Shown: positions 56 to 53,900 of the stretch, one piece after another
Numbering within the stretch: position 1 is the first letter of the stretch
Layout of the letters: every line of letters begins with the position of its first letter
DNA from: Tetradesmus obliquus
Lineage: Eukaryota > Chlorophyta > Chlorophyceae > Sphaeropleales > Scenedesmaceae
DNA length: 64,000 bases
Direction of reading: 5' to 3'
NCBI GenBank assembly: GCA_030272155.1
Contig: CP126200.1
Location: forward strand, 3,534,001 to 3,598,000
Translations under genes and position numbers: made by a program
The notes under the pieces: generated by a model
Told to the model about the DNA's origin: nothing
The model's database searches: none
Seen by the model: only the letters and a program-made list of their open reading frames with translations

Positions 56-1399
56 ATGCGTTATACTGTACTGGAGAACCCTCCCTGGTGGGAATGCATA
101 GGTCTGGGGTTCCAGGTGCGGCCAGGTGTCACTGCAGGCAGGCTCGACAGCCTGTACGCAAGCATGCCCAATCCATTGTGTGCAGTAAAGCTCATTTATT
201 TCCAAAACTGCAGTCAACAGGCGGCCTCTTCTGCACACCACCAAGCAGTCCCACTGCCCAATCAGATGTCGATGCACGAATACAGATGCAACGGCTGACT
301 TGCTGGAGTTGATGTGTGCTGCACTGGCCTGCTGTCACGCAGCAATACCTCACCATGATTGGCAGCATCCTGGTTCCCTTCATTTGTATCCCTGCAATGG
401 GCGGCAGCCCTCAAGGCAAGTACACAGCCCACTGATTCCACCTGATGGCTAGTCAATGCAAGGCGACAGTCGACAGTGTGTTCTGCTGCAGTCTGTTTTG
501 TCGGTCACATTGACAGTCACTGCAAGGTCGCAGTCTGGCCTGATTCATGCACCTGACAGCAGCTTGAAGCCATGTTTAGCGCATGTGATACCTGCAGATG
601 CGGCAGCAGCTTGTGCTGGTCAAACACAACTCACCCTTTACAACAGCTGCAGGCCCCGCAACGGAGCTGATGCGCTGCGCCGCATTGCTGCACAAAGGCT
701 GAGCCAGCAGTGGGAGTCATTCATTCACTCCGTCTGTGCATTAGCCAGTGTCAGCAGCTGTATGCCATCTCCAGCAACATCCGCTGCCTGCTGGGCCGTC
801 TGCAGCACAGCTGTCTGATTCCCTTACCCTAAACCTGCGTCCACACAAGGTGGAGGCTTTTCTCCCGGCCCCAGCATAGTGCAGATATGCTGTGCTTGTT
901 GCGCTTGCCACTCCGCTGCAGACCTCGCGTACGTGATTTGCACAGTCTTCTTTGTGGATGGCATCGTCACCTCGCTGCAGCTGATAGCAGGCGACAGGCT
1001 GCCCCTCATCCACAGCGCTGCTTTTGCATACGTCAACCCGACCCTGGCAGTTGCAGCCCACATCAAGGCAACACAGGCTTTTGCCAGTGAGCACGAGCGA
1101 TTTCTGGTGAGCACACTTGCCTGTGTAGCGCCGTTCCTTTGCTATGTTATCAACATTGTCATGACGCCTTGTCATAAGACTGTATGTTCAACATGCCGCT
1201 GATCAGTAGTGCCAGGACACAAGCGTTGCTGGCCCTGGTGTTGCCTTTTGAATGCCATGGCGACAACGGCATGGTCTGAATTTGACTGATTTGTGTAGTT
1301 GTGCTGCTGCGTGGCTGCCTGCAATGCAGCACACGATGCGGGAGATGCAGGGCGGCTTTATGGTAGCGGGATCATTGTGGGCATTTGGGCCGACTCATA

Positions 1400-1465
<66 letters not shown>

Positions 1466-2842
1466 AGTACACGATGCGGGAGGTGCAGGGCGGCGTTATT
1501 GGCAGCGGGCTCATCATCCTCCTGGTGGGTGGGTGGGTGGGTGTGCCTGTCCAGCTCTACCCATAGCAGCACACGTCGCCCGCACAACTCACACAAACAG
1601 CACAATGAAAGCATCTTGATTGTCGTACATATGACCTTCAATGAGGCATCACTGGCAGTTGATGGGCAGCTGCTATCTGCCGTACAATGTGTCACTGAGC
1701 CAGTTGCACTGCCCCTGCAGCCACATTCAACCAGTGACCATTGAGCCACTGTACAAGCTTGCTTGGCACGTCCTGGCTGCTTGCGTGTTGGCTGTTCTGC
1801 TGTAAGCATGGTGCATTGCTGTTGCTTTGCGCGTGTGCTTTGTGCTGCAATGGTGCGCAGGTGGGGGCCACAGGCATTGTGCGGCCGCTGCTGAGAGCGC
1901 TGGGGCCGATCACTGTGGCAGCAAACATTGGAGTGCTGGTGAGAGGAGCCTGACTGGCTCATCATCATGTTACCCGTCAAGCCATAGCATCAACGCCACC
2001 GGCTGACTGGCTGGCACAACCCCTGGGATCACATGCCAGCTGTTGTTACATGCGTCAGTACATACCTTCACAAATCATATTACATATATGTTGCGCTTCA
2101 GTTGTGTGCAGCAGTGACGCCGTGTGAGAGTTGTGGACAGTTGCTCTAGCCACAAGAGTTGGCGCGCTGGATATGATTGACTGCTTTGATGGCTTGCTTG
2201 CTGATAGCGTATTCGCAGCGGCAATATCAAAGGTGGTGCCTCAGACAACTCACTACAAAGCAGGTTCTTGAACTGCTACCCTATGCATGGCCTGCTGCTT
2301 GCTGCTTATGAAGCTGCTAACAGTTACACCCATTTTGCAATCAAAAAAATTCAGCAAGTATACATGCTGCAACCTCACCATCAATCTGTCCTGCAGGGCC
2401 TGGCACTTTACAGCAGCGGGTTCTCAGGCATGATGGCTTGCCCGCAGCTGGGCTTGATGCAAATGGCCCTGCTGATACTGTTCAGTCAGTATCTGAAAGG
2501 AGTGGCGATCCCGCTGCCCTGCAAGTTGGGCAGGTGACCAGCAGCAACGACGGAGCGTTTGGGGTTGCACCAGGGGGTGCTGCCGTGACTACAGACTAGC
2601 CTGCATGCATGTATGCATGCATGCATGTATGCCAGCAGGTGGCACACCCAGCTGGCAACCTGCTCTGCCAGCCGCAAACGCGCAGCAGTGCAAAGGATAA
2701 CTGTAATGTGCAAGCAAACCTTCCACCAGACAAAGGATTTGTCGTCATACGCATCACATCAGGGTGATGCCCCCTGCAACGCCAGCCTGTATGCGCAGTC
2801 GCACCAGGATGCAGTACACGTCCTTCACTGACTTTTGACACG

Positions 2843-2874
<32 letters not shown>

Positions 2875-2877
2875 GTG

Positions 2878-2918
<41 letters not shown>

Positions 2919-2921
2919 GTG

Positions 2922-2958
<37 letters not shown>

Positions 2959-2961
2959 GTG

Positions 2962-3053
<92 letters not shown>

Positions 3054-5053
3054 CGTGCCTGCCTGCCTGCCTGCCTGCCTGCCTGCGGCCACCTCTTACC
3101 ACAATCTAACACACATTGCCGACCATCACACCAGGATACATCACCAGTCCCTCACCAACTCTCAGGTAGATAGATAGAGGGGTTGCACGGTGTGTTCATG
3201 CGGCATACGCCACCACAGACACCTGGTAAAGACCAACTCTTGACACGCTGCCTGCCTGCCTGCCGCCACCTCCCTTTCAACCGACACACACCTCGCCGGC
3301 CAGGGCCCGCATCTTCGAGCTGTTCCCTGTCATCCTGAGCATCCTCACCAGCTGGTGCATTGCCTGGATCATAACAATCAGCGGCGCATATGACAGCGCC
3401 GGCCCCGAGGTGCAGGCGGCCTGCAGGACAGACCAGTCCCATGTTTTGGCGGCTTCGCCATGGTTTAGGTTTCCCTACCCGGGGCAGTGGGGGCCCATCT
3501 CGATGAGCTGGGCCAGCACACTGACCATGCTGGTGGGTCTGAAACACCGTACATACGTTTTCTGCGTCGCTGGGCTGGTGCATGCCATGCTGCGCTTTTT
3601 GGTGTGGCTCTGCATGTGTTACACCTATTGGGCTGTTGATGAGGGTGCTGAGTGTGGGACGCGCAGCTTCCTGCAGCAACATTGCCACATTTCTGCAAGC
3701 AGCTTGCACACAGCTTCAGAGGAACTCCCAGCCAGGTGATGGCAGGCATGCCACACACACAGCTAGCAAGCACCGCTGTGACAGTCAATAACGACTGATC
3801 AAACTGTTGTTGCCCACTGTGCGGCCTGTGTGCCTCCCATGCATGTGCAGGCTGGTGCGCTGCCGGCTTGTGTGGAGAGCCTCGGAGACTACTTTGCTGC
3901 TGCAGGCATCGTGGGTGGGTGGTGCAGTGCAGTGCATTGCAAAGGGTGATGTGCCAGCCTGCGTTTTGCATGGCGTGTGTGCCTTCCTTGTTTCTTTTCA
4001 GGTGAGCAGTCTGTCAGTCACTACGGGTAGGTCCCTCAGCCCATCCTTCAAAGTTCCCCTCATTGACATGCAACCAAACTACACACATGCCTGGACCACA
4101 AGCTCCAGCACACTCTCAAGCAGTCACACCCTTTCACTACGCTCGCCCCTTGTTTCCCTGCCCCGTGCCCCTTGCCAGGCGCCCCCGTGCCGCCGCCAGG
4201 GCTCGTCTGCAGGGCCATCGCACTGCAGGTATGTCCACTGCTTGATGATAGATAGATAGATAGAGGGGTTATGTAACAGATTACATGGTGTGTTCATGCA
4301 GCATACGCCACCACCAACACCTGGTCAAATGGGATTCAGCATAGAGCTCAACACGGGCCGGCCCTGACTGCTTGATGCCGTGCTGCCGGTCAGCTGCGCC
4401 CGCATGACAGCCCACTCGAAGCGTCAGGAGACTGTGGGCTGTGGTCTCCCGGTCCAGCGTTGCTTGGATGTGCCCTCAGCATGCTGCGACTGCTCAGCCT
4501 ACAAGCGTGCTGTGTGCCGCAAAATCACTGATGGCCAAGGCACCGCAGGCAGGCTGGCTGCTGTATGATTTTGGATTCGTCCTGTTGCCGCAGGGCGCCT
4601 CCTGTGTGCTGGCTGGGCTGTGGGGCACTGCCAGCGGCACCACTGCCATCAACGAAAACATCGCTGCCATGGCCATCACGCGCGTGGGCAGCCGACGTGT
4701 GATGCATATGGCTGCGCTGTGCGCGCTGGCGATGGGGCTCATGGGTGAGCGGCGCTGCAGCAGATGCTCACCCCGTTGTTGACTGGCCTCCGCTGAAGAC
4801 TCATTTGACAGGCCAAGATGTGACTTGTATGGATGTGCGCGCTAGTGATGCGGCTAGACGGTGCGCTGCACTGGTCCGCAGTGCTGCTGCTTCTCCATGC
4901 AAACTATGTTCAGGCATATGGTCCCTGAAGCGAGTAATCGGTTGCTTTGTCTGCTATTCTGCTGTATGTTATCTCTGGTGGTGCTGCGGCCGCATATATG
5001 TAGATGGTCGTTGACTCTGTGCTTGCTCAGGAGCTGCTCAGTTGGCCACCGCC

Positions 5054-5088
<35 letters not shown>

Positions 5089-8737: not shown

Positions 8738-8777
<40 letters not shown>

Positions 8778-12618: not shown

Positions 12619-15600
12619 GAGGAGTGCCAGGAGGAGGCAGGGCACCGCGTACTGCAGCAGCAGTGGCTTCAAGATTGTGCAGCTCCAGGTGGTAGTGCAG
12701 AGCTCGCTTGCGACAATATGTGTCACTGCAAGGGTGTGCCCAGCCTGGAGTGTCACCTCTTGGATTAGCCGCCTCCTTGCCCTTTCGTACCCAATACATG
12801 CTTGCACATCTGCTATTCACCTCCCCAAACAGCACACGCTGCTGCATCTGTGGCCACTGCTACCTCTACAATTTGATGTGATGTGCTACCATATGCACCC
12901 TGACGTGCCTGCACAACTGCGATGTCATGTTTCCACCCGCACAGGACAAGCTGCGTGACAAGCTGGGCGTCATGCACAGCAAGGCGCAGCAGCTGCTGCA
13001 GCTGGGGCGCCCGGAGGCAGCAGAGGCGCTGTTCCGCAAGCTGCTGGTGCTCAACCCTGATGACTACCGCGTGCATGAAGGCCTGCAGCTCTGCCTGGGC
13101 ATACAGCCGCCCAGCGAGGGCCAGACCTGGCAGCAGCAGCAGCAGCAAGCGGCAGCAGCAGCCGGCAGCAGCAGCGAGGCCGCACGCAGCAGCAGCAGCA
13201 GCAGTGTGTGGAGCCCACACAGCGGCAAGAAGCGGCGGCTGCTGCAGGCGTACAGTGAGGAGCAGCGGGGCAAGCTTGTGGCGCTGTATGGTGCTCTGGG
13301 CCAGCAGTACCCCAAGAGCATGGCCTGCCAGCGCATCCCGCTGGACTTCCTGGTGCGTTTGTTTATGTTGTGTTATGTTGTGTTATGTTATGTTACGTTA
13401 TGTGCTGCTGTTGCAAGAGCATGGTGTGCCAGCGCATCCCTCTGGACTTCACGGTGAGTCTGATCACATTGGATCGTTGCTGCTGTGAATGATCATATCG
13501 TGTTTGCTCTGCTGCCATGCATGCTGTGCATGGCATGCATGGCGTACTGTGTCAATCGCGGAGCTGCTGCTGGGTACCTCTGCATCAGCCAGGCCTGCAC
13601 CACGTTTAGCCTGCTCACTGTCGCTGCTGCTGCTGCTGCCGTGCCGCAGGTTGGCTCCGACTTTGCGGCTGCCGCGGACAGCTACGTGCGCCGCTACCTA
13701 CTGCGCGGGATCCCCAGCCTCTTTTCAGACCTCAAGCCGCTCTACGCTGACTCAGCAAAAGCAGCAGCGCTGCAGCAGCTGTTTGAGGGCTATGCAGCAG
13801 CCCTGCGCAGCAGCGGCAGCTTGCCAGGACTCCTGCAGCCGGCCGCAAACAGCAGCAGCAACGGCCCGCTGCGGCAGCAGCAGCCGGCAAATGGCAGCAG
13901 CAGCAGCAGCGGCAGCGGCGAGGACAACCCGCTGACCTGGGTTCTGCATTACCTTGCGCAGCATTACGACCGGCTGGGTGATGCTGAGTCAGCGTTGAGG
14001 CTGAATGATGAGGCGCTGCAGCTAGCGCCTGAGGTAATTGAGCTGCTGCTGGCGCGTGCACGCATCCTGAAACACACAGGTGGGCTGGTGATCACTCATC
14101 GCTGTCAATAGATAGTTATGGTACATGTGCAATGGGCTTCAAGCCAACTTTTGGCTTCGGTTTTTCTAGCTATGCGGGAGGGCTGTTCGGTTGGAGTGAC
14201 GGAGTGACTGTTCGACAGTGGTGGTGTAGCGGCTGTGCCGGTGATGCTTACACTTTTGTTACACACACTGAGGGTGGCTGTGCGCAGCTCACCCGGGCAT
14301 TGATTACATTATTTCTCTGAGGCGCGGCCCGCTCACCACCACTGTTTTGTGAATTGATTGGTGTCTGTTCTCGTATAACTTTGTAACACGTGGCAGCAGG
14401 CACATCGTTGTGCGTGTTGCCGTGCTCATTGCGTACAGTTTGCTTGGGTGTTCAGGTGCCGTTGCAGGCCTCCGCTTGTGCCGCAGACGCACATTGCTTG
14501 CAATCACAATTTCTTCACATACGTCACATCATGTTGCTTTGTTGCTGCCCTGCAGGCGACATGGTGGGAGCGGCAGCAGCAGCGGACGCCGCGCGCAAGG
14601 CCGACACCGCGGACCGCTACACCAACAGCATGGCCGTCAAGGCTCTGTTTGCAGCCGGCCAGGTGGAGGCTGCAGAGCAGACCGCCATGCTGTTCACGCG
14701 TGATGGGGACCAGGTAGGTGGTGATTAGTACGCAGTTTGTTTTGTGTGGAGTTCGTTGTGGCACTGGCGGATGCAGTACAGTGTGGATGGGCCAATACAT
14801 AGCTAGTGATCAAGGTGCAGGCAGTCTCATGGGTGCCAGCAGCTGCGCCAAGCGCGCAAGCAAGCTGCTTTCAGCTCCCATGGTTTGTATGCAGCCCTAA
14901 ATCATGGCACCCATTTTGCAGCTGGCGTGCTGCATCATTTGCCGCCTGCCTGCTGTATGTATTGATGCATGTCTGCTGGTGATGACAACTACACACTTGC
15001 TCATGACTTACACATTCATGCTTGCTTGCTGCAACCTTGCTGCTGCCTGCAGCTGAACAACCTGTACGACATGCAGCACATGTGGTACGAGGTGCGCTGC
15101 GGCGACGCGCACCTGGCAGCAGGAGCACTGGGCAAGGCCCTCAAGCAGTACACAGCAGTGGCCAAGCACTTTGCTGACTTTGTGGAGGACCAGTTTGACT
15201 TCCACTCGTACTGCGTGCGCAAGATGACGCTGCGCAGCTACATTGGCCTGCTGCGGCTGGAGGACCGGCTGCAGCACCACCCCTTCTACATGCGGGTGAG
15301 GCGGGTGTTGCCTGTTATTTTATCTGACATGTTATGTTATTTAACATATTTTGTGACAGATGTTGTGAGGTGGCGCTGCGCAGCTACATCGGCCTGCTGC
15401 GGCTGGAGGACAGGCTGCAGCACCACCCCTTCTACATGCGGGTGAGGCGGGTGTTATTTGTTATGTTATTTGACATGTAATGTTATGTGGCGGCATGTGT
15501 GGAGAGATGACGCTGCGGAGCTACCTGGGCCTGCCGCGGTTGCAGGACCGGCTGCAGCACCACTCCTTCTACATGCGGGTGAGACGGGCGTTATTTGTTG

Positions 15601-17403
15601 GGTGTTTTGTGCCATGTGCTTGATCGTCTGGCTGCTTTTGAGGCCCGTCTGCAGCAGCAGCAGCAGCAGCAGACATTGTTGACCTCTGTGCTGTGCTGAG
15701 CCGCAGGTTCAGACCTCAATGCGCCTATACTCTATACTCTATACTTCTAATCTATATACTACTGCGTGAGTCTGATTGCTGTGGAAACCGGCCTGCCTGC
15801 CCACCCCTCAAACATGTGTATGTGTGCTGCGCCTTGTGCAGGCTGCGGTGTTGTTGTGTTGCTGTGGAAGTGAATGCTTGCCTTCCCACCGCTAAAACGT
15901 GTGTCTGCGGTGTCCTGTTGTGCTGCGCCTTGTGCAGGCTGCGGTGGGCGCTGTGCGCTGCTACCTGGCGCTGCAGGACGCGCCCGCAGCAGCAGCAGCA
16001 GCCACAGCAGCAGACGAGGCGTCACTGGCAGCACTCAGCCCAGAGGAGCGCAAGAAGGAGAAGCTGCGGCGCAAGAAGGTGGGTGATTGTTATAACATCT
16101 GTAATAACATATGTTATTTTTTTGGTATGATGGGACGGGCCTGCACTACGCTGCATGCACACCTACGTGTGCAGGCACACGTAGGTTTGACACGCTGGTA
16201 TGTTGCGGCACGCGCGTTGTTGCACTGCACCCAGAACGCTGCAGAGTTGCAAAGGAGGGAGGATTCTATATGCACGGTTGAGAGAGTGTTGTGCTGCTTG
16301 TGTCGTAGCAGCCCGACTAGTTTAGCCAACCAACAGCAGCCATGCCAGCCACTCGTTACCAAGCAGTCCACAGTAATGGGCTGCATACGGCTCCACATGG
16401 CCGGCACATCTTGCCACACGCACAGTGCTATCACAATTCACTATGTTTTTGGGCTAGGAATGGCGACCTTCTGCAGTTCGACCTTGACTTTGTCACAAGC
16501 GTCTGATACACTGGCGAAGAGCTACCCACCGAGGTGCATGCTGCTGCTTCTGCTGCTGCTGCTGCTCTTGTAGGAGGAGAAGCGGCGTGAGAAGGAGGCA
16601 GAGGCAGCTGCGGCTGCTGCTGCAACTGCTGCTGCAGAGGCAGCCAAGCAGCGCAGCAGCAGCGGCGGCGGCGCAGCAGACAAGCAGAAGAAGAAGAGCA
16701 GCACGCGGTGAGCAGCAGCAGCAGCAGCAGCAGGTGCATGCCCGTCTGGGCTGCAAATAGGGAGCAGTACAGCTGCCAGCTGGCTGCATCCGCGCCTTGT
16801 GTACAGCCCCTCATCACAAGTGATGAACCAAAGCGTTCACGCGTCATGGTCATGGAGCGATCAATCAAGTTAGCAACGACTCGAGCTGGCTTGCTTACTG
16901 CACATGAGACAGTTGATCATTACTCAAGCTTACACATTGCTGCTGCTGCTGCTGCTCCAGGCCTCCTGACCCCGACCCTGATGGCTCCAAGCTGGCTGCT
17001 GCTGCCGACCCGCTGGCGGAGGCCACCAAGTATGTGGTGGGCCTGGTGCAGGTGAGGCGGTGTGTTTGTGGCCGTATCATGTTGGAGATTTTAGCGTGTG
17101 CGGGTGGGGTGTGGACAGGTAGTAGCAGCGCTGATCTGCTTGTTGTGCTGTGCATGTGGTTGGGCTGGTGCAGGTAGGCTGCATCGCTGTGGCTCAGAAG
17201 AGGTGGAGCAGCAGCAACAGCAGCAGAAGGTGGTGGCGCTGATGTGGTTGAAGTGGGCTGCAGCAGCAGGAGCAGCGATGAGCAGGGGCAATGTTTGTGG
17301 CTTGACAAGTGCTGCTGCTTGCTCTGCAAAACATCGTTTGGCTGCTCAACAGCTCACCACACGTCTACACGCTCTATGCCACAAGGCTGCTAACCTTCAC
17401 TCC

Positions 17404-19523: not shown

Positions 19524-22500
19524 ATGCCCGCCATGTGGAAGCACACCCCTGCAGGTGCCCGCAGCATGCTGTCAAGGCTAGGCATGAGCAACCCCATCGT
19601 GCTGGCACCCATGGCTGGCTGCTGCACACCTGCTCTCGTGGCTGCCGTCAGCAATGCTGGTGGGTGCACAGCAGCAGGTTGATGGCTGTAGGAAAATAGG
19701 ATTAGGGGTGCAGTTGGCACACTTTGTGTTTGAGCCCATGGGAGTCCCCTTTACTGTCCCAGCTATATCATCATGATGCAGCTGTGCTGGGTGTAGCTGT
19801 GGCTGCTGCATGGCAGGATGCAGCCACTGATAAGTGTCAAGGGAGAAGCAGCAGCCTGTCACAGGCGCAATCGCTGCAGCGTCATTCGGACATGCAGGCG
19901 GCTTGCCAGCAGAAAGTCAAACACTTGGATCGACAGGCTTTGACCGGCATGCATCTCGCTGCTGTCAGCCAACAATGACTCTACTGCGGACACACAACAT
20001 GAATTTGCTGCACCATTTTTTTGCAAAACCACTGCATCAACCCCGCCACATGCCTCGACCTGCAGGAGGTCTGGGCATGTATGGCGCTGCCTCCCTGCCT
20101 GCCGCACAGCTGCCCAGCATTGTGCAGGACATCCGCGCACAGCTGCAGCAGCCAGACCTCCCCTTTGGCATAAACCTGTTTGTGCCCCCAGCAGAGCTGC
20201 CTCCTCACACAGAGGCACAACAGGCAGCGCTGCAGCAGGTGCACGCCTACTACGCTGATGCAGCAGCTCGGCTGCAGTTGAATTGTGAGGTGAAAGCGCA
20301 AACACCAGATCTTGCTGCGTTACAAGCAAATTTTGCTGCGCAAGTGCAGGTGAGCGCCGCCAGCTGTTGTTATTGTTGCAGGCACCAGAAATATGCACAC
20401 ATGTTCAGGTCGCTGGGCGCGTGTTGCCTGCAGCACACTTGCGAGAGGTGCACCACACTAGGCAGCAATGTGTGTGGCGCTTCGAGCGGTGGTGCCGCCT
20501 CAATCATCCAACGGCATACAACAAGTCCAACATCTGCATGTGGCTGATCAAGATGAGCCAGCTGTGCTGTGCGAACAATCCAGCAGCTGTGCAGCTGCAC
20601 CTTGTGCTTGCTGCACCTGTGAATCATCACAAGCACAACTCTACCATTGCAGCTTTCACTTATGCTAAACAACATGCATGCAGGTGCTGCTAGATGAGGC
20701 TGTACCTGTCATCGCTTTCTATTTTGGGCTCCCTGAGCAGCAGCTGCTGTCAAGAATCCAGGCAGCCGGCACCTTCACCATGGGCACAGTCACGTGCCTG
20801 CAGGAGGCACAGAAGCTGCAAGCTGCAGGCAAGTCCTGCGGTGCCAGCAACACCGAGCACTGATCACATCAGCACCGACCACATAAACAGCAGCAGCAAC
20901 ACCCTTTAACGGAGGTCCCAGGACAGAGCTCCACTGCAGCAGCAGTCAGCATGCTGCCTGAGAGTGCTAGCATGGCGGGGCAGCACCCTTCACTGCCCCA
21001 AATTCTGTCATATGCTTCTGCATGCTGGGCCTGCAGGCATCGATGCCATGGTGGTGCAGGGATCAGAGGCTGGCGGCCACAGGGCCACCAAACCAGCCAG
21101 CCAGCACAGCCTGCATGCCTGCAACGCACTGTAACACTGCCACCGTGCCTGCAGGCATTGATGCCATGGTGGTGCAGTGCTGAGAGGCAGGCGGCACAGA
21201 AGCACAAAAGCCAGCCAGCCTGCAATGCTGTGTTGCTGCCTTGCGCTTGCAGGCATCGAAGCCATGGTGGTGCAGGGCTCAGAAACAGACGGTTCCATGA
21301 GCACACACGCAGCCAGCCTGCAATGCTGTGTTGCTGCCTTGCGCTTGCAGGCATTGATGCCATGGTGGTGCAGGGCTCAGAAGCAGGCCGCTGAGGCACA
21401 CAACCAGCCAGCCAGCACAGCCTGCAAGCCTGCGATGCACTGAATCTGTTGCTGTCAACGCTGTTGCTGTGGCTGCAGGCATCAATGCCATGGTGGTGCA
21501 GGGCTCAGAGGCAGGCGGCCACAGAGGCACATGGTACAAGACCGGGGATTACACCCCACACATGACTGGTACCACTACCCTGGTGGCACTGCTGGCGCAG
21601 CAAGTTAGGGATGTGCCGCTGCTGGCTGCTGGAGGCATCATGAATGGCGGGCAGGTGGCAGCAGCGCTGGCAGCAGGTACAGTGGTGTTATGAGGTTTGT
21701 GTGTGCTGTTCTGACAGATGCCATGTGCATGCCACGCAATGTGTGCCGTGGCAAAACGTATGTTGAGTATGTGACAGGTGTTGCACTGCTTCGTCAGTGT
21801 TATGTGGTTGCCTACAGCGGCCAATGCAGCAGCCAATGCAGGCAGCCATGTAGCAACAAGCAGGACAGACACCTGACGTGGGGAAGCCACGGCGTGCAAC
21901 TGCTGTGAACCTCGACCACGCACATGAAGGCTGACAACTTGCTGATTTGCTCGCTGTGTCATGCACCTGGGGTGTTTCCTGCAGGTGCTGCTGCTGTGCA
22001 GGTGGGAACGGCTTTCCTGACAACAGCAGAGGCAGGCACCCCGCAGCCTGGCCGGCAGCTGCTGCTGCAGGACCACACCAGAGGCACCACAGTCACGCAA
22101 GTGAGGCCTGATGACCTTCGCAGCTGCACACGTAGTTGACTGCACAACCGTTTGATTGCATCGCAGCCATCGGACATGTTGTTAAACAGCAGCACTGTGC
22201 AAAGGCACTGCAAAGGTTAGGTTTGCATCAAACACGCAGTCAAAGCGCACTGTGGGTGTCAGTCACGCACTTCCGTCACAAGCAAGAGCTCGCGCAAGCA
22301 TGATGCAGACCCTGTGTCACTGGCACCTGCATGAAGCGGACACGCGAATGAGCACATTGCGTCCCATCACACTCATCACAACACTCGGCATCGCACTGGC
22401 ACCTTCTTGCAGGCCTTCACAGGGCGGCCTGCTCGGGGGCTGACCAACCAGGCCACCAGGGACCTGCAGCAGCTGCAGCAGCAGCTGCCGCTCAACCTCA

Positions 22501-22881: not shown

Positions 22882-22902
22882 CTGCTGCTGTTGGTAGGCA
22901 AA

Positions 22903-22907
22903 TGTAA
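22903..22907 (+). terminator. TGTAA poly(A) signal for the NMO-like gene
   Basis: TGTAA 22 nt after the TAG stop codon at 22879-22881. Confidence 0.5.
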
Positions 22908-28189: not shown

Positions 28190-28221
<32 letters not shown>

Positions 28222-30588: not shown

Positions 30589-30663
30589 TCACTTCTGCTT
30601 CTTCTTTTGCTTCTTTTTCGGCCTGTCCTGCTGTTCGCTGCTCTGCTGCTGCAGAGCCTGACC

Positions 30664-30726
<63 letters not shown>

Positions 30727-32743
30727 AGAAGGCTCTGTCATGCTCTTCGTCTTCTTTTTCTTCTTCCTCTGCTGCTGCTTCACCACTGCCGGCCCCTGCT
30801 GCTGCTGCTGCTGGCCGTCCCCGCCGCCCTCACCCTCAGCCTCCCCTTCATACTTCAGCACAGGGGTACCCAGGCCCCTCCATTCCAGGTCAACCAAGCC
30901 CCGCTGCTTACGCTGCCGCTCCGCTGCTGCTTCAGAGGGACAGCAGCTGGCCATGGCTGCCTGCAGCTGCTGCAGCAGCCCATCACGCACAGGCCACTTG
31001 GCTGCTGCTGCTGTGGTTTGCAGGAACAGGATGGCGCTGTCGTAGGGAGACTGGCGGTATAGATCGCGCCGCTGGTGCGAGGCGCCATCACAGTAGCCTG
31101 CACAACAAGCCAGCAGCAGCAACAACAGTGCGCCAAGGCGGGCATCACATGTCTACAAGAGAGGACTTATGCAAGTGTGCATACTGTCAAGTACTAACCA
31201 TGCAACACGGCACATGTCTGCACACACCATGCCACCTTCCGTCCTTGTCACAACGCTTATGCGCAGCACATAGGCCACATAGGCTCATGTTCTAAAGGTA
31301 CTCTCAAACGCAAGCAAGTGATCTGAACTGTGTTGCGAGCAGTGGATAGCCAGTCGGTCCAATCCTCAAACCTGAACCGCGCAGCACATAAGCCACAGCC
31401 CTCATCATGCCCGTCTTGCTCACCATGGTCTGCAGCACATGTCTGTCTGTACACACCATGCGACCTTTCGCTCTTGTCACAGCGGTTGCGCGCAGCACAT
31501 AGGCCACAGCCCACAGCAGGCCCCTCCCACTCACAGCATGCCCCTGCCACTCACAGCAGCACATAGGCCACATCATGCCCCTCCCACTCACCATGGTCTG
31601 CAGCAGCCACCACCAGCGACCTTTGCAGGAAGCTGCTGCTGTTCATCAGCCCCCAGCCCGCCACCTCCGTCCATCCTGGCACCAGCACACAGAACGACAG
31701 CGCGCCGCCGGCTGCCTCGGCCTGCTGCAGCAGGGCTAGCACGTGCTGCGCTGTGGCTGTCAGCAGTGCCGGCACAAAGGGCGGGTTCGCTTCATAGGAG
31801 CCGTGCTTGAGCTGCATCCTGCAATGCAGCAGCAGCAGCAGCAGGAGCCAGGTACGGCAGCGTACCGGTCAGGTTCAGGCTGCTTTGTGTGCAGCAGTCC
31901 AGATGGTTGTGGCAACATGGCGTGCATGCAGTGTGATCAGGGCTGCAGTGAACTGCAGGCAGCACACGAGCAGCACAGTGCTGTGCATGTTGCATGGCTC
32001 CTCCTGCAAGCAGCCTGACAGGTGCTTGGCACAAGTGTGGCTGCACTAAACCAAAACGTATCCAGTCTCAGCATGAACAATGTCATTCATAGCTCGCACA
32101 ACCCTGTCCATGTGGGGTTGAATCCTGCACATTAAAAAGTGCCTACCTGAAGAAGCTGCCTGCGCTGCCAAAGGGCCCATCCACATCAGGAAAGGCCGAG
32201 CCGAACTTGTTGAAGTGCGCATTCAGCGGCGAAGCGAAGCACTCAAAGCCCACAGCAAGCTTCTGGCGCAGCAGCTCAAACACAGGCGGGCCGGCAGCAG
32301 CCTGCAGCAGCAGCAGCAGCAGCAGCAGGCCGGCGGCAGCCACATGGTGTTGATGTGGCAGTAGCATGTGTTGGGGAGCAGGCACGACATCTGCACAGAA
32401 TGCAGGTGGTAGTTTGCAATAGCAACAGGCTGCAGCAACAGCTGTCCCAGCGCAGCATTGCAACGGCAGCCGGCAGCAGGCCCCGTCTAAAACCTATGAG
32501 GAAAGGATGGCCAACAGACAAAGTCCACGCTGGGAGAGCATATCATCAGCATGCTCAAGACTTCAAGACCGCGGTTGGTCAAGGTTGTTGGCACGTTTCA
32601 TAATGCATGTTATGCATTCCGTGCCCATCCCAGCCGCGTATTGAGTCACTTGCCTGAAAGCCATGCCCCTGGATGCTCTTGTAGCGCAGCAGCAGCGCAA
32701 TCAGCCGCTGGTGCAGTGCCACGCGCTCAGCACCACCCTCACC

Positions 32744-32775
<32 letters not shown>

Positions 32776-33089
32776 GCTCTGCTATCTTTGCCTCAGCACA
32801 CAGAACAACATGATGTGCACCACCCCCAGCTGCTGCTGCTGCTGCCTCTTCCTCTTCCTCTTCATCCATTGCTGCTGCATCATCACTGCCAGTGGCCTCA
32901 TCAGCAGCATCGCCGGCACCTGCTGCTGCTGCTTGCATTGCCTGCAGTGCTGCTGCTGCCTCATCCATTGGCAGGCCGACAGTGCAGTCTGCTGCTGCTG
33001 CTGGCTGGCCAGCGGTCAAGAGCCAGTGTGTGCGGTAGAGCCGGGCCAGCTTGCCGTATGAGGCACGTGACACCTGCGAGTAACGCAGC

Positions 33090-33160
<71 letters not shown>

Positions 33161-34993
33161 CAGCATGCGGTAAAACGATCAGGTGCATTGCCTGTGTCGG
33201 TGAGCACATGAATTTAAAAGCAACGATTGTGAAAAAATGATCGCATTTTGAGCACAGACAAGCAGGGCATGGCACAATAAGAAAGCCAGCCTAGGAGCGG
33301 CAATAATAAAAACTACATAGCAGCTCCGCCATTGCTGCACCCTGCAAATAGGGCGTATCCACTTTGACTGGTACAACCGCACCTTGACAAATGACTTGCC
33401 GCATGTCAGGTCCAGCGAGTGCTTGTGGAATGCCACAGCAACAGCAGCGCAGCTGGCAGGCCTACCAGAGGCCAGCTGGTGCCGCCTCCTGCTGACACCT
33501 GCTGCTGCCTCCGCTGACGCTTGCGCCAGCTGCAGCGCCACAGCAGTAGCAGCAGCTGCTGCCAGTCCGGCGCGTGTTAAGTCGCTGACAAGGCCAGGCT
33601 CCGGGGCCGGAGGCAAGCAGCCGCCAAATGGCAGCACTGGCTCCGCACTTTTGCTGCTGCTGCTGCCGGCTGTTTTATTAGTACTAACAGGCATGCCTAG
33701 AGCCAGCTGCGGCTCATCTTCCGCCCACTTTGCGGCAAAGCGCCATCGCTCAAATGCAAGCAGCGGCACGTTGCGCAGGCCTGCTTTAGCACACAATGAG
33801 GCCAGCTTGTGGCGCAGGCTGTCGAGTGCAGCAGCGCGCAGAAGCTCCAGTTCCACTGCTGCTGCGGGGCTGGTGGGGCATGCTGAGTGGGGCACTGCTC
33901 GGGGAGCCCACTTGGCAGCTGGCTGGGACTGGCAGAGCTCTTGCAGCGGCCTGTGTGAGTGGAAGGAGTGGAAGTTTGCAGGAAGGTGGCGGCATGGCTG
34001 AGGAGGATGCAAGATTATGATAAGCGTAGTGTGGTTCTGGCTGGGACTGGCAGAGTTCCTGCAGCGGCCTGTGTGTGTGAAGTTTTGCGGGAAGGGAGCG
34101 GCATGGCTGAGGAGGATGAATGAAGAAAGTAGGTGCAGTTTGGGTCTAGCTGGGACTGGCAGAGCTGCTGCAGCGGCCTGTGTGACTGAACGTTTGCAGG
34201 AAGGCGGTGGCAGAGGTAAGTCAAGAGGAGATATTTGCAGTGTGGGTGGTTCTGGCTGGGGCTGGCAGAGCTGCTGCAGTGGCCGGCGATTGCAGAGCTT
34301 GCAGGAAAGTGGCGGCAGAGCTTTAGGAGTTGAGCAGAAAGAGAAGTCAGTGTGCAAGTGTGAGGTGGGAGATGCGGTAGTAGGTGGTGGCAGCAGCAGC
34401 AGGAGGTGCTGAGCTTCAGCTCTTGCAGTAGCTCAAAAGTCAACGTCAGAAAGCAGGTTGCAGCAGGACGATCACCTGCATACCTCTATGTGCAAGCTAC
34501 AAGCTTGACAACTGTGGAAGCTAGCCTGGCTAATTGTACTGGCTGGCGCACATGCGGCAGGCCGACTGTACTGGCTGGCGCACATACAGCAAGCTGGATG
34601 TGCAAGCTGGGGCATCGGCTGCCTATGCTATACATGCAGGAGAGGATGGCTACAGCTGCTCGCAGTGGTGCTTTGCAGGCTGCTGCTGGCTGGAACCAAA
34701 CGTTACCGAAGAGTGATACAATGCAAACACACACGCTACAAGAGCAGGAATTTCAGTGCAGGACGGTGTCCTGGTGCTGGCTGCTGCTGGTGCTGGTGCT
34801 ACTCTACTGCTGCTGCTGCTGCTGCTGCTGCTTGCCGCCTAGCTGCACGTGTTGCGTGTGGCACTCACCCTTTCGCAAGGCGGCCTGGAGTCGACACAGT
34901 CTGCTTGCCTAACCCGGTGGGTTGAACGTTCGTGTGCTCATGAGCGTGCTTTTGCTCTGTTGCCGCACTTTCGGAGTTCTTCTTTCGAGCCAT
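30589..34993 (-). CDS. PCIF1: PCIF1/CAPAM-type cap-specific adenosine-N6 methyltransferase, 6 exons
   Basis: Family of SAM-dependent enzymes that N6-methylate the cap-adjacent 2'-O-methyladenosine of mRNA. Exons, 5' to 3': 34993-34869, 33950-33383, 33073-32654, 32301-32147, 31818-31592, 31097-30589; 667 aa, all phases consistent. Family blocks: LAFERWRFAAKW, SLDLTCGKSFVKV, LIALLLRYKSIQGHGFQ, FECFASPLNAHFNKF, FPDVDGPFGS, the catalytic NPPF tetrad (about residues 434-437) in GSYEANPPF, FCVLVPGW and ILFLQTTAAAAKWPV. There is no WW domain at the N-terminus, unlike the animal protein. Exon 3 carries an acidic poly-E/poly-A insert, and the C-terminus is poly-Q followed by a Lys-rich, NLS-like tail. 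Intron 3 has a GC donor. Exons 2 and 5 have duplicated edges. Confidence 0.9.
30663..30727 (-). repeat. CAG run coding poly-Q near the PCIF1-like C-terminus
   Basis: About 20 CAG codons on the minus strand, between a Lys-rich block and the final KKKQKKKQK tail. Likely length-polymorphic. Confidence 0.85.
31180..31600 (-). repeat. Repeats in PCIF1-like intron 5, including a copy of the exon 5 donor edge
   Basis: CACCATGGTCTGCAGCA (minus: exon end CTGCAGACCATG plus GTGAG) occurs at the true exon 5 end (31591) and again about 168 bp into the intron (about 31421). GCGCAGCACATAGGCCACA and ACACACCATGC blocks also recur two to four times between 31200 and 31580. Confidence 0.75.
33092..33160. repeat. 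CAG/CTG run in PCIF1-like intron 2
   Basis: About 22 triplets. On the minus (sense) strand it is a CTG run located about 20 nt upstream of the exon 3 acceptor at 33074. Confidence 0.9.
33915..34320 (-). repeat. Up to four tandem copies of the PCIF1-like exon 2 5' edge
   Basis: Units of about 110-118 bp. On the minus strand each reads a CACACAG-type acceptor, GCCGCTGC, then CTCTGCCAG(T/C)CCCAGC. Exon 2 proper starts at 33950; acceptor-like copies begin at about 34068 and 34177, and a decayed copy without the acceptor lies near 34270. All intact copies would join exon 1 in the same phase. Confidence 0.88.
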
Positions 34994-43956: not shown

Positions 43957-46900
43957 TCAAAACAGTGGCGGCAGTTGCGTCACCTTCACGTCACTGGACA
44001 CTACAAACCACTGGTCCACTGCACGTGTAACAACTTTGTCCAAGCCTATGTATGGCGTTGCCGGCGTCTTCACATATGTGTCCCAAAGCTGACCTAATGA
44101 CTGCCGCGGGCCCGCCTGCTTCACCACCCAATCAATGATCTGGTTCCAACCCTTCACATTCACTGGGAACATCTCATACTTCACAGCATAGTTCACAGCC
44201 GTGCTGTGAATAACCGTGGCATCCCACCCAAAATCCGCGGCAATGCTCACATTTGCAGCCAGCTGCGCAACCAGCAGCGTAGCCCCGTCCCCTGTCGCAT
44301 TCAGCACGCTGACATTCGTGTCGTACTGCGCAGCAATCACAACGCCGCCCTCCGCGCCAGCGTTGAAACTGACAACGGGCGGTGTTGTCATCACGATGTT
44401 CATCAGCATGCCGCGCTTGGAGTAGTGCTTTGGCAACTCCGGGATCAGCCCACCAAACAAATCGGTGATCAGCCGCAGCTGCGGGATGTTCCCATCCTGC
44501 ACGGTCTGATGCAGCGCACCAGCATTGAACAGCCCCCAAAAGATGCAGTTGGGAATGGCCTCATGCAGGTACAAGCTGAACATTGAACTGTCCCCGCCAA
44601 TGTCAGCGGGTGTCAGCGGCAGCGGCGAAGCCGGGAAGGGGCACGCGCCGTCCAGCAGGTTCGGCCGCAACAGCTGCTGCTGCTGCTGCATGGTGAGGTG
44701 CCGCGCTGCTGCCTGGCCAGCTGAAGCGTCCTCCTGCTGTTGCTGCTGCTGCTGTGGTGCTGCTGGCGAGCTGGCTTGGAGGCTGGGTGGCACGGGGTCA
44801 ATCACAACCTCACCATACCCCTGCAGACATCAAATGCAGACAGGCCCATGGCAGCACACCCTTGAGATGGAGGTTGGGAGCTGTTGAACCATTGATAATG
44901 AAGCTGAGCGCAGACAACCGCAGCGCACCCTGTGCAACAAGCACATGCAAGCGTAGCAGACACATGCTGCTGCTGTTGCTGAATCTGCTGCTGCTTCTGC
45001 TGCGAGACGGCAGCCAATGCAACTAGACAGCAGCGTTGGTGCCCGCTGTGGTCCTTGGCTCTGTGCTTCTGTATCAGCATACACGTATGTCCAACGCAAA
45101 CAGCAGCCGCGCAGGGCGTGCACACCTTGACGATAACGTAGTTGAGCGTGTACACTGCGTAGGTGAACACAGCATCAAATGGCAGCCCCTGCACAGACAC
45201 CTTGGCTGGCAGGCTGTCCAGCAAGCCGTTGATCGCCCCCGGCACGTCCTGCATTGCACACCAACCAGCACACACACAGCAGCAGGTCAAGCAGCTGCAA
45301 TGGCAAGAGACATCGTGCGGCAAGGCGCCATGCCGGCGCAGGTGCCAAGGCAAACCAGCAACAGTCGACGACGGCTGAACAGGTGCCGCTGAACCACAAA
45401 GAGTACCACTGCTGCCAGAATGCTGCTGACGCGTCGCACCCCACCGCGCAAATGACATCACACAGCAGCTCTGACTGTGCCTGCTGCTGCTGCTGCTGCC
45501 CCATGCCGCCGCCCTTGCCGCCGCTGCTGCTGCTGCAGCCCAACTACACACGCCCGACAGCAGGGGCAGCAGCGGGGGCAAGCACCACCCCACAGCACAA
45601 CGCGCTGCCGCTCTCACCGTGTGCATGGCGCCGTCCAGCTCACACTGCTAGCCCCGGCTGTTCCCGCTGCTGCTGCTGCTCATGTACATGGCCCCGCTGT
45701 TCCTGGCGCAGCAGCAGGTGCAAGGATAATGCTGCACCATAACACTGTCCGCAACTCTCACCGTGTGCATGGCGCCGTCCAGCGCCTCCTCCACCTGGCG
45801 CTTGATGGTGCCGCTGAAGATGTACAGCAGGCCCTGGTACAGCCAGTCCGCGCTGTAGCTGTGGATGGTCAGCCGCAGCGACTCAAAGCTGACAGCAGAG
45901 CTCACCGCCACCAGCTGCGGCACGCCAGACTCCTGGTTGCGCACCTGCAGATGATGTGTAAAGATGCGATGCATGAAGCAGGCGGCAGAGCACAAAGCAT
46001 GCGTCAGAACCAGCCTGCAGCCAACAGCCTCCATCACAAAATTCACTTTTTTGACGTGAGGTGTTGCAAGCATAGCTGCATGCTGTGTACGCAACTGCGC
46101 CGGCGTTTCGCGCAAAAGCGCTGCCATGGAACCATGGCAACCATGGCAACCTGTAGCTCGCTGGTGCAGTGCACACGGCTGGTGCTGTGCGACAACATTT
46201 CAAACATGTAACAGGTCATGTAGAGCCAGGTTCTTGCTGTGTGTTTCCAAGGCGCTTGCACCTGCTGCTGCTGCTGCTGCTGGACGGGCTCTCACCAGGA
46301 AGATTTCGTCCAGCGCTCCGCCCTGCAGCGAAAGCTCGCCATAGCCGCTGCCTGACAAGGGGCCCTTTGACCAGCCCCAGTCAAACGTGATCTGCACGTC
46401 AACGCAGCACACACACCCGAGTTCTGTTAAGGCAGGCATATCGAAAGTGCTCGCTCAACGTGACTAGGCATTGCACTCTTGTCTGCAACTGTGCATGGAG
46501 GGTCCATGTTGTACGTGCCTAGTATGCCAGCAGTGAGGCAGGGGCGCCTCGCGTGCCCCCTCCCCCGGGAGGGGGACCAAGCACGGGTAAGCAACTACTG
46601 CAACAGCAAACCTGTACCATGCTGCGCTGCAGCACTTATGCCATATTGAGCCCTGCTAGCACTGCTAGCTGTATAGCTGCATAGCATCAATTGTGTCTTC
46701 CTGCAGTTGACGTGCATCTCACCTCCGCTGTAAGGTTGGCAGCCTTCAGGTGGTAGTACCCGCTCTCAATGGCTACCTTTGCCAGCTCACGAGGCACCTG
46801 CAGGTTTGTGATGTTGACGTTGCTGACAGACACATCGATACCGCCAATCACCGGGATCTCCAGCGTCGTCTTGTACTCTGGGATCTTTATCTTCTTTGCT

Positions 46901-49178: not shown

Positions 49179-50900
49179 TCAGCGCTGTGTACACATGTGT
49201 AGCCTAGACCTTCACCCCCTCCCAACAGAGAAGAATGAGGCACAAGCAAGCCATCACAAGCCAACACTACATCCAAACAACTGACGGACAATGCAAGGAA
49301 AGCATTACAGCATCGCAAATCATGCAAAGCAGCCAAAAACACCCCAACCAGATGCAGCACAGGGATGCAGCACACAGTGATAACAATCCGTACTCATACA
49401 AGCCAGTAAACAAGCACCATTGATGACCAGAAACCCAAACAAACACCCAACACTGTTAACAGTGTTTCACTGCAAGTGTGCTGGCTATAGGCTGGCACAG
49501 AGCAGTGCATGTACATGTGTTACTCAGGGTTCTGGTGACCACAGAGCAGGACACAGCTACAGCAGAATGCTGCAAATCACAGGCTACCTGCATGACCCTG
49601 ACTGGGCCAAGGGGGTATCACCGTGGCAGGTTGGCAGGATAACCATTAAATCAGTCATACAGGCATGCGGGCCGCAGGCAACCAGGGACGCACTTCTATG
49701 TGCATGTGCGTGACCAGTATGTATTGCCATGTGCAGGCGCCCACCATAAAACTACAACTTCACCCACATGTGCCGCTGTACAGTGGGCAGCAGCTGCAGC
49801 ATCAGCATGCTGAGCCGCCCTGAACCTAGCAGCCAGAGAAAAGCAGGCGGCACACCATCACAGCAGCTGCCAGAGCACACCACCCTGTCAACAACACAAC
49901 ACCCAAGCACAGGCAAAACGCAGCACTAGTGGAAATCATCAAGCCCGCCAGTCGTTTGCACCAGCTCTGGCTGGCCATCTCATGTACAGACTGTCTCAGA
50001 GCCTGCAAGCATATGCATTGGGCGCTGCATAATGAACATCTGCATCATAACATCTGCACAGCAAAAACATCTGCACAGCAAAAACATCTGCCTGAACCCA
50101 TTACTGTGATTGGTTGCCAGACCGCCACAAACCCCATAGAACCCCTTTCTGAGCAGTCTGTCGAGATCACAGACCAAAATAGTGCCTAAACCTCGACCAG
50201 TGGGCCAAGGAAGGCTGCTGTTACTCAGCAGCGGCAGGGGCCACTGCACGCAGTGCAATCATAACAACCTAGCGAGGAATTGACCCCCTGGGGCCCAGCT
50301 GTGGAAACCTGCAGAACCCCAAGTAAGGCTCTGCCTCAATGCTAGGCATCTAGCGGCCTGTTGATCAAAAGACCAGGGCAAAACCATGGAATAATGACTT
50401 GGGCCCTTGCTGGATGTGCTCTGCACAACAGCTCAAGTAAGCTACGCAACCCCATGCAGGCCGCAGTAGCGTCATGAGCAAATGCTGCACTGGCCCTCAA
50501 TGGTGCCTACACAGCAGACTCTGCAGTCCAGCACTGCAAGAATGCATCGCTGCGGGGAGAGCAAAAGAAGGACTCAACAAACACGTTCTATGCATGCGCT
50601 GCAGCTGCAACAGTTTGGCAGTGGCCCTAGGCCTGACATGCAAGGGTCTAGAGTTACAAAGGTTAAGGTTTCAGCATACGCTTCCAGGCAGCTGTGGCCC
50701 ACTGCCTTGAACCAGCAAGGCACAAACCGTGTGCCTATGCCACCCGCTCAACCAGGTCCCGCTCACTCCTACTTCAATCCCTGCCAGGAACAGTGTGCAT
50801 TAGCCTCGTTTGCATCAGCCATGGGGAATCCCTGTGCCGGCGCTTGGATCAGCCACACAGTGAGGAGCGCCAGCCATGACAACTGCCAGCTGGCTGCAGC

Positions 50901-53900
50901 TTAGTGCTGCTTGATGGCAAACACGGCTGTGTGGGCCAGGGGGTCAGCGCCAGCATCATCCCTGCGAGCCCATTTGCCTGCGGTGGGTGGCAGGGCAGAC
51001 GGCAAGGGAGCAGCAGCCACACACACACACACACAATGTTTCACAACAAGAATTAACCAATTATCCACACCCTCTCTCATGCGCAGTTGCAGCCAAACAC
51101 AACTTGAGCAGCCGCAAGCAACCGCAGGGTAACTTGTCAGTCTCATTATTGAGCTGGCGACTACAGGGCCAGCAGCAGAGGCGAGAGGTGAAAGTGCAAT
51201 TTGCTGTCATTTGCACTGCGCCGCAGGCTCTGGCAAAACAAACTCGCTGAACTTTGAGGCATGGCTGATCGATTAGACCCTGTGATTGCACTGGTTGTAT
51301 CAATGTGGACACGCTGGGATGAGTTGCATTGGGTGCAGGGGACGATACATGGGACGATACAAGGGGAGGGCAGACGATGTGCTGTGCAGCTCAGAGGTGC
51401 AACAGAGAACCACCGCTGGCCTGGGCTTACCTGAGCGCACGTGGCTGAGCATGATGCAGATGGGTGGCAGCACAAGCATGCCTTTCAGCACCAGCAGTAT
51501 CATGGGAGGGATGGTTGACATGAGGGTGATGGTGGGGATCATGGCGGGCCAGTCCTCCTTTGCGGCCGGCCACCATGGGGCACCAAGCAGCAGCACATGC
51601 ACCTGCAGCCGGAGCAATGGGGCAGCGGTGTGAGGCCAGCATGTACAAGTGTGGGATTGTGATTGGCTGGCAGCACGTTGGTGTATCTGGGCTCGCTGCG
51701 AGAAACAGCAACCAAATGCATATGTTGACCTTGTTGGTGCCGCAATGGCCCCATCTAATAAGCCCAACATCCATGTATTGCACATGTCTTGCATATGAGC
51801 AAGGGTGTGCCCAGTAGCAGCAGCGGCAGAAGTGACAGCGGCAGCAGCAGCCCAGCAAAAGCAGTGAAAGCAGCAACAGCAGCTCTTGAAGCCGGGCTGC
51901 CTAGTGACGCAGCTTCAGAGAGGAGGTCTTGGGTTCAACTCCCAAAATTTCCATCCGTTCGTGTTGATGCATGTTCATGCTTCAGGACTCAGATGCAACG
52001 TCTGAGTGGATGGGCGCTGACTTGCTAGTGCGGCCTTGCAAGGCCAACTGCCAATTAGCGTACCGTTGCTGTGCAGACGGCCAGCCAGCCTGCTCGGCTC
52101 TGCAGCAGCCTCCACTCGCGCCAGTTCATTTTTGGCGTGATGCTGGGCATGGAAGTCAGCGCAATCACACCCATCAGCACACCTGGGCAAGATGAGCGCA
52201 GCGAAAGGCACAACAATTTGGCTGACCTGCAATTGGCTTATGCAAGCCGGTTGACAGTAAACTACCGTGAAGCACATGACTCAGCATATGCAGACACATC
52301 AGCAGTGATGCAGGACTGCTGGGCAAACTGAACATTGCACTCGCATGATGTAAAAGGACAGATTGTACGGTTGTTGTGTTGACCTTAACATGAACACACA
52401 TGTATTGTACAGTATAGGCTCTGATCGTTCTTTGCCTGAACACCTCTGCTGTCCAAGGAATTGGGGAGGAGGGGCCGGAAACGGGTTTATCGCCTGAAAA
52501 TATTCCCATTCCCAGCGGGACACATATGTTGGTGGGCATACGGTGGGGGCAGGAGTGTGCCGTCCGCGCGCTGTCAGCAGCACAGCGCACCAGCGCTGTC
52601 AGCAGCACAGCGCACCAGAGCTGTCAGCAGCCAGCGCACCAGCGCTGTCAGCAGCACAGCGCACCAGAGCTGTCAGCAGCCAGCGCACCAGCGCTGTCAG
52701 CAGCACAGCGCATCAGAGCTGTCAGCAGCACAGCGCACCAGAGATGATGCCGAGCAGTGTCGAGGACTCTCCGATCCAGTTCAGCTTGCTCCTCAGGGTG
52801 ATGATGTTGGTGGCGGTTGTCAGCATCTCCAGTGGGTGGCTAGCATTCAGGGCTGCCGCAGCCACTGTTTGCTTGCGGGGTCCTGACACTGGCCAGGTGC
52901 TCATTGTAGTGCTGTTGGTGGTGGAGTAGGTGTAGGCGTCATCAGCGAATATGACCTGCGCCAACGTATTGCAGGGGGTCACAGGTTGGCAATCAGTGCT
53001 TGGCCAAGGCCACTGCCCTTCGGTAATACGGAGGCTTTTGATGCATATGCAGCAAGTACTTGATGGGACAGAGGAACTGTTGCCAGCATGCATGCTTTGC
53101 ACCTGTGAATTGCGTGATAAGTGCGACATTCCAGCCCAAGCCTTAGGCATTGCTTATTTCGTTTTGCTTTTATTCTTCGTTTTCTTGGCATCGATAGATT
53201 TAGATAATCAAGAATGTAACCCTTCAACCCTGAATGGCATACTGGGCTGCAGCGCACCTGCAGGCCTGGTGGCACCTTGCCGCCCTTGATCAAGCCAAAT
53301 GCGTCCAGCCCTGTGCCGTTTATGGTCGGCACCACCGCCACATCAGTCTTGTCCCACAGCTTGGAGTAGTAGCTGGGCATCCACAGGAACGTGGAGAACA
53401 GCAAGTGCAGCAGCACTGCACACACGTGCCGACACAGGGCCAAGCAGGCCATGAGCAGCAGCAGATGCACGGAAGGAGAGGCTGCTGCTGCTGCTGCTAC
53501 TGCTGCTGCTGCGGCATGCACCGTGCAGTGGCTGATGCCAGCAGCATGCTGTGCTGCACAATTCAGGAGGCATTGAGTGCTGCCAGGTACTTGAGCAGAT
53601 CTTTGAAACTGGTGCTCAAGTACCGCTGCCGCTGCATGGTATGCTGTTATATGCGGCCCGCAAAGAGGGTTTGGAAGGACGCTTCAAAGTGAGGCTGTGT
53701 GCTGCAGCTCTCAAGATTGCCGACTCAATGGCTCAAACAGCTGCCTGATACCTATCCACAATACGCTGCTAGACATGGTATGCACGGCACCACTTACTTG
53801 TGAACAGTGAGAGCAGCCCCAGTGGCTTCCTAGCATCCATCCAAGTCTTCAGCCAGCAGGGTAGGCGCACAACAGGGCGGCGGGCCAGCAGCTGCCACCA

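Follow-up and report, generated by a model that had tools for sequence, protein, structure and literature searches.

Tandem duplication within genes has a known role in intron gain (PMC3443670), and intron gain by this route has been reported by Hellsten 2011 and by Gao & Lynch 2009, as relayed in the accessible parts of PMC3443670 and PMC4974935. In the potato RdRp gene, a tandem duplication across an intron-exon boundary was accompanied by the gain of a new intron (PMC4974935). We analyzed a 64,000-nucleotide stretch of Tetradesmus obliquus DNA (the window, C10:3534001-3598000 of a 104.66-Mb genome in 17 contigs), together with 250 kb from elsewhere in the same genome, and found that some introns repeat the edge of the exon beside them together with its splice site. 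These loci resemble the described cases of intron gain in being short intragenic tandem duplications that carry or create splice sites; they differ in that an existing splice site is duplicated and in that the likeness is largely limited to the exon, a feature that we did not meet in the accessible parts of those papers.

The duplicated unit in potato, as far as the accessible text describes it, joins the 3' part of an intron to the 5' part of the exon that follows, an arrangement also seen in our acceptor-type loci, but it concerns one gene in which an intron was gained and in which the intron part with the splicing signals is still shared. This was the only case of exon-edge copies beside their own intron that we found in the open-licence literature, judged by titles and the beginnings of abstracts. 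While intragenic tandem duplication is known, neither the density of copies (45 of 924 predicted junctions, about 5%, have recognizable copies in our sample) nor the exon-limited likeness was found in that partly covered literature. We did not find the pattern of the Rogers model, in which the two splice sites of a new intron both come from a duplicated AGGT in an exon: 66 of 70 copies have the existing donor or acceptor at the homologous position, and AGGT was not scanned for.

The sample covered 314 kb (the window, C1:2.00-2.10 Mb, C2:2.00-2.10 Mb, and C5:4.00-4.05 Mb), with a GC content of 0.57, and the results below refer to it unless stated otherwise. All exon limits came not from RNA but from our own exon/intron hidden Markov model (HMM), self-trained on the 314 kb and seeded with 15 peptides from the window. 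The model returned 621 introns with a median length of 252 bp; it merges adjacent genes and takes some copies for exons. Four rounds into training, about 12% of the donors had a C at position +2, a proportion of GC donors that self-training may inflate. For scoring, we kept the 490 of 655 predicted exons that had 25 bp or more free of repeats (the 165 dropped include any exon shorter than 25 bp). Each block was compared with itself at offsets of 25 to 1000 bp after short-period repeats had been masked, yielding 107 alignments, 84 adjacent pairs, and 59 direct-repeat loci.

A splice junction of a kept exon was crossed in 46 of the 59 loci, whereas shifting the positions 1000 times gave 22.5 ± 3.4 and never more than 32; this excess bears out the statement of an initial annotation of the window that repeats straddle junctions far more often than chance would allow. 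That annotation had set in advance, as a refutation, that tandem duplications be equally common in mid-exon and mid-intron; on the 314 kb, the enrichment stands, with 46 loci at junctions, 2 inside exons, and 11 elsewhere against 22.5, 9.9, and 26.6 expected. These counts use splice junctions only, and counting gene starts and stops as edges as well gave 47/59 (and 14/19 for the whole-unit pairs described below). All 43 donor copies lie downstream of the real site and all 26 acceptor copies upstream. Adjacent pairs are offset by 80 to 149 bp in 53 of 84 cases and by 200 to 259 bp in 14, so that spacings close to the proposed 95 to 145 bp do prevail between neighbors, whereas only 35 of 69 copies lie 80 to 147 bp from their own real junction.

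We then asked how far the likeness extends on either side of the junction. Across all classes (69 copies of 45 junctions), the identity between real sequence and copy was 0.887 on the exon side and 0.638 on the intron side (Wilcoxon, P = 5e-12), unrelated introns giving 0.525 for donors and 0.555 for acceptors. The difference was also seen between copies, with the working exon excluded (0.847 versus 0.624 in 34 nonindependent pairs). Where the exon side was 0.90 or higher (36 copies), the intron side was no better than the 95th percentile of the null in 20 and reached at least 0.85 in 6. The 84 pairs divide into 19 whole-unit tandem duplications and 65 part-aligned pairs. Of the 37 pairs retained for measuring the extent of the shared stretch (whole-unit pairs, pairs with less than 80% identity, and pairs without a kept exon were dropped), 35 cross a junction. 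In these, the shared stretch comprises, at the median, 44 exonic and 6 intronic bp, and one of its ends is close to the junction far more often than under random placement (Kolmogorov-Smirnov, P = 7e-11). The junction-straddling repeats first noticed in at least six genes of the window thus stand on most points and extend beyond it, with the exception of the adjoining intron, which was said to be repeated too and is mostly absent from what is still alike, and of two further points (the STEAP array and coding phase) treated below.

Six of the 11 window loci span a kept-exon junction; those starting at 1328, 15776, 22823, 33919, and 59396 do not, although at 1328 the exon was lost to the 25-bp filter and the acceptor copy is recognizable by eye. 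The repeat at 59396-59567 is at no reliable junction. The other features are as follows, with gene assignments from Pfam runs on proteins trimmed from the HMM models.

1328-1375, plus strand: intronic copy of the acceptor edge of the NAT/permease gene (88% over 49 bp, spacing 138 bp)
1466-1514, plus strand: real acceptor edge of the NAT/permease gene (HMM exon 1468-1524; PF00860)
13313-13361, plus strand: real donor edge of NAA15 (HMM exon ends at 13352; PF12569)
13414-13462, plus strand: intronic copy of the 13313 donor edge of NAA15 (86% over 49 bp, spacing 101 bp)
15222-15309, plus strand: real donor edge of a later NAA15 exon (Pfam score better without the copies)
15368-15451, plus strand: second unit, intronic, NAA15 (differs from the first at 2/60 exon and 24/70 intron positions)
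15505-15592, plus strand: third unit, intronic, NAA15 (differs from the first at 6/60 exon and 29/66 intron positions)
15776-15946, plus strand: two acceptor-like units with few exon bases in common (74% over 88 bp, spacing 83 bp)
21037-21478, plus strand: four acceptor units in the intron preceding the NMO exon
21479-21676, plus strand: real NMO exon whose start is repeated (HMM exon; PF03060)
22823-23034, plus strand: repeat at the 3' coding end of the NMO gene, not at a splice junction (74% over 111 bp, spacing 104 bp)
25856-25929, minus strand: intronic copy of the 25997 donor edge (87% over 75 bp, spacing 141 bp; intron flanks unrelated)
25997-26071, minus strand: real donor edge of a gene initially labeled F-box/TerD
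31215-31605, minus strand: donor copies of a PCIF1-like gene, with the real edge at 31556-31605 (79 to 86%, spacings 111, 175, and 229 bp; PF12237)
33919-34320, minus strand: array of acceptor-like units preceding the next exon of the PCIF1-like gene (76% over 302 bp, spacing 118 bp), the exon start being uncertain in the model and the array scored as crossing no kept junction
45563-45639, minus strand: intronic copy of the 45705 donor edge of a BPI/LBP-like gene (76% over 79 bp, spacing 142 bp)
45705-45783, minus strand: real donor edge of the BPI/LBP-like gene (HMM exon 45762-45944; PF01273)

At the first NAA15 site, the splice site reads GTGCGT in the gene and GTGAGT in the copy, and at the second, the third unit differs from the second unit at 7/60 exon and 26/66 intron positions. 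A donor array on C1 has four 34-bp exon edges that show 0 to 1 differences and introns that are mostly unrelated.

The initial annotation had pictured an active process that duplicates DNA at splice junctions. Whole-unit duplications are the nearest to fresh events, and because they show no significant preference for junctions (13/19 versus a null of 10.7 ± 2.2; 120 of 500 shuffles as extreme), such targeting is unsupported, although with only 19 pairs a modest preference among them may exist. The part-aligned pairs behave differently, 39/65 being at junctions against a null of 16.8 ± 3.5, with 0 of 500 shuffles as extreme. The enrichment therefore resides in the pairs that are still alike only at the exon edge and splice site, and the simplest view is that duplication occurs without aim and that likeness then survives unequally.

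Plain neutral tandem duplication followed by decay, with nothing acting on the copies, would account for the 19 whole-unit pairs and for their lack of a significant junction preference. The unequal likeness of exon and intron sides is nevertheless unexplained by it, since the intron part should stay recognizable: at the observed exon likeness, simulation gave a z score for intron-flank homology of 6.9, compared to 0.86 seen in 26 part-aligned pairs that were picked for short alignments. The comparison over all 69 copies is a fairer test than this class, and the excess of exon over intron likeness between copies was likewise obtained without such a selection of pairs. We consider plain duplication, already disfavored on these grounds, improbable.

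At the other extreme, slips of repair or replication might insert a duplicate of the exon edge (30 to 80 bp), splice site included, in the adjoining intron, the intron part never having been duplicated. The 65 part-aligned pairs are what such copying would produce, and outside the shared stretch their mean identity is 0.567 versus a null of 0.533 (whose coarser sampling gives the observed figure an advantage), and this holds also for pairs with 97 to 100% identity in the shared part. However, it is unexplained why the copied piece should stop at the splice site (a median of 6 bp beyond), whole-unit duplications of similar spacing are present (19/84), and a weak residual homology is found in the introns. 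This homology was retested against windows of the same intron, as local composition could inflate it, and gave a mean z score of 0.67 (P = 0.003, 26 pairs). We regard copying of the edge only as unlikely.

The copies could also derive from a dispersed element or from related genes. Four DNA queries covering copies matched only themselves in the genome (very common words were skipped); three of them are part-aligned loci with 97 to 98% likeness, for which we rejected an origin of the copies from paralogues or homeologues. Two further queries gave, among the candidates scored (40 of 54 and 40 of 445, respectively), only short matches elsewhere, none of which fell within an exon copy and one of which lay in a spacer, and 30 of 36 spacers had no other match in the 314 kb. 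Introners, intron-making elements inserted many times, would fit with the large number of introns affected, but all of these searches speak against them, and the many near-identical dispersed introns that define such elements were not found for the loci queried; we give this explanation next to no weight. As a separate observation, the spacer between two copies on C1 (block 33341-33388) holds a motif of about 40 bp that occurs in other introns (C2 96750-96787 and C5 4899-4933), and an intronic 45-bp stretch at 1959-2003 of the window has at least 41 further genome matches at 92 to 98% (40 of 445 candidates scored), indicating a short dispersed repeat.

Other known arrangements were compared as well. 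The loci share with minisatellites their tandem units, which are whole in 19/84 pairs; they differ in that the 65 others are alike mostly at the exon edge, and the likeness along the whole unit that marks a minisatellite is confined to the 19. Nor did we find tandem exon duplication or mutually exclusive exons, as the part-aligned pairs cover a median of 44 bp of exon at one junction (18 loci displayed); some whole-unit pairs hold more than this and were not assessed singly for whole-exon duplication.

In concerted evolution by gene conversion, a copy resembles its partner in the same gene more closely than the corresponding copy of a paralogue (PMC2720389 and PMC3924837). One place in our sample hints at such a relation, with 2/36 versus 9/36 differences in one paralogue but 8/36 versus 9/36 in the other; the partners here, by contrast, would be a 30- to 80-bp exon edge and, at a distance of about 100 bp within the gene, a noncoding copy. 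Two neighboring paralogous genes on C5 (block 23300-28500 and 29500-34500) have introns that align at about 72 to 81%, and further searches for paralogues gave only this pair and one weaker match on C6. Both genes have an acceptor copy at a matching position. Compared with one another, these copies are as divergent as the intron (9/36 versus 14/56), while against its own exon the copy shows 2/36 differences in one gene and 8/36 in the other; the second gene contains a third copy, which is 4/36 plus gaps from its own exon. The pattern, from a small sample, fits with recopying from the local exon in one lineage.

We next considered whether the copies are maintained by selection, as alternative or decoy splice sites or as coding sequence of minor transcripts, while the rest of the intron drifts. 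Between real edge and copy, we counted 108 synonymous and 60 nonsynonymous changes and 3 stops (42/84 pairs; pairs below 78% identity or without a kept exon were dropped), a synonymous share of 63% that exceeds the ∼47 to 53% expected if a neutral copy is paired with an exon under constraint, a figure derived from 33 to 38% for the copy alone. The splice dinucleotide (GT/GC or AG, with 7/43 GC donors counted as kept) is conserved in the 66 of 70 copies mentioned above, compared to a proportion of 0.787 predicted from exon-side likeness (P = 3e-4), and exon sides are alike from copy to copy. Against selection, decay of the copy alone (5 to 6% per site, positions 1 and 2) would leave about 62/70 splice sites, the two paralogous C5 copies differ as much as the intron does, and 13/36 part-aligned pairs contain a gap or stop; the 36 pairs hold 9 frameshift-length gaps (some possibly in intron columns) and 3 stops. 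Furthermore, spacings of up to 160 bp are multiples of 3 in only 4/27 cases and not in 23/27, which also fails to support the proposal that copies often keep the coding phase. Selection on the copies is possible, if unlikely.

Consistent with these spacings, in-frame coding exons were rejected as the identity of the copies. In NAA15, the Pfam score is 200.8 bits in one stretch without the copies and falls to 188.9 bits in two stretches with them. For NMO, 126.0 bits were obtained without copies and 138.6 bits with two, so skipping is not favored there, but repeats can add stretches at this gene and only the NAA15 result speaks to the question. On C1 (block 69627-69827), the copy of an exon start precedes about 53 bp bounded by GT...AG, possibly a young exon and intron; as a gained exon, it is doubtful, the GT donor giving 71 bp, out of frame, and the in-frame 63 bp of the HMM needing a poor GC donor. 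Also on C1, the terminal part of a final coding exon, stop codon included, recurs 226 bp downstream (87351-87422 and 87577-87648), with 4 synonymous codon changes and no others. No case of the creation of a new intron or exon was shown among the loci examined.

Gaps and stops also bear on the possibility of an assembly artefact, through polishing with RNA reads or through reads misplaced between repeats. The likeness does stop near the splice site, as spliced-RNA reads would, but such polishing should remove gaps and stops from the copies, and the contigs are long (17 for 104.7 Mb). An artefact seems to us highly improbable.

We tentatively favor, at just under an even chance, a combination of tandem duplication, tolerance at junctions, and recopying of exon edges by conversion. 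Local tandem duplications, mostly of about 80 to 150 bp, would be frequent in this genome. Those inside exons would be purged and those inside introns or across junctions tolerated, the latter because the outermost site (first donor or last acceptor) would still be spliced, so that the extra exon edge ends up inside a lengthened intron. The intron parts of the units would then drift apart, whereas the intronic exon edge would occasionally be recopied from the real exon, through gene conversion, or through template switching, involving direct repeats that lie about 100 bp from each other, and the shared stretch would stop at the splice site because selection holds the real exon and the splice consensus fixed. 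A tandem origin fits with the 19/84 whole-unit pairs, whose introns are alike, and with the trace of intron homology in part-aligned pairs. The numbers, positions, and spacings of the copies and the unequal likeness of exon and intron sides are observed, whereas the splice site used and conversion as the cause are what we infer; the small C5 test leans toward conversion. In the four-copy C1 donor array, the outermost copy has about 20 bp of intron in common with the real donor while the two between do not, and this one case therefore suggests that DNA tracts rather than spliced RNA are copied.

Several observations weigh against this combination. The intron side exceeds the 95th percentile of the null in 23/69 copies, so that exon-only likeness is not universal, and the trace of intron homology is weak (rank of ≤0.05 in 4/26 pairs). 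NMO units 3 and 4 have an identical 40-bp intron end and exon parts that differ at 9/45 positions; exchange between units was therefore not limited to exons there. The synonymous excess makes some constraint on the copies possible, conversion leaves the spacing unexplained, the paralogue test amounts to 36 bp at one place, and exon limits depend entirely on our own HMM.

Regarding the genes of the window, Pfam backed most of the initial names (permease, NatA auxiliary subunit, NMO, PCIF1_WW, E2 [UQ_con], and LBP_BPI_CETP). The 530-amino-acid candidate for the F-box/TerD label had no Pfam match, and that for STEAP, a label thus only partly sustained, matched only F420_oxidored, barely over the cutoff. 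The array assigned to a STEAP junction (52570-52743) lies mid-intron, between model exons 51431-51602 and 53258-53502; it is a seven-unit 25-bp minisatellite, away from predicted junctions. A CTGC tetranucleotide array of about 61 units occupies 2843-3086.

Intron lengthening and the origin of splice sites have mostly been studied from single cases, and from the sequences at hand, it is plausible that copies lengthen introns and provide decoy splice sites. With about 5% of predicted junctions having copies, this genome would offer many natural experiments on the choice between near-identical splice sites. The same copies bear on whether conversion can act exon by exon inside a gene, and the neighboring C5 paralogues are useful for dating them. 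If the sample is typical, its 46 junction loci extrapolate to about 15,000 genome-wide. It is conceivable, though we think it quite unlikely, that exon-limited homogenization continues across the genome, with thousands of intronic edges refreshed from the working exon as far as the splice site, perhaps via spliced RNA; if true, T. obliquus would hold a permanent reservoir of preformed splice sites, and its introns would have a means of rewriting exon edges.

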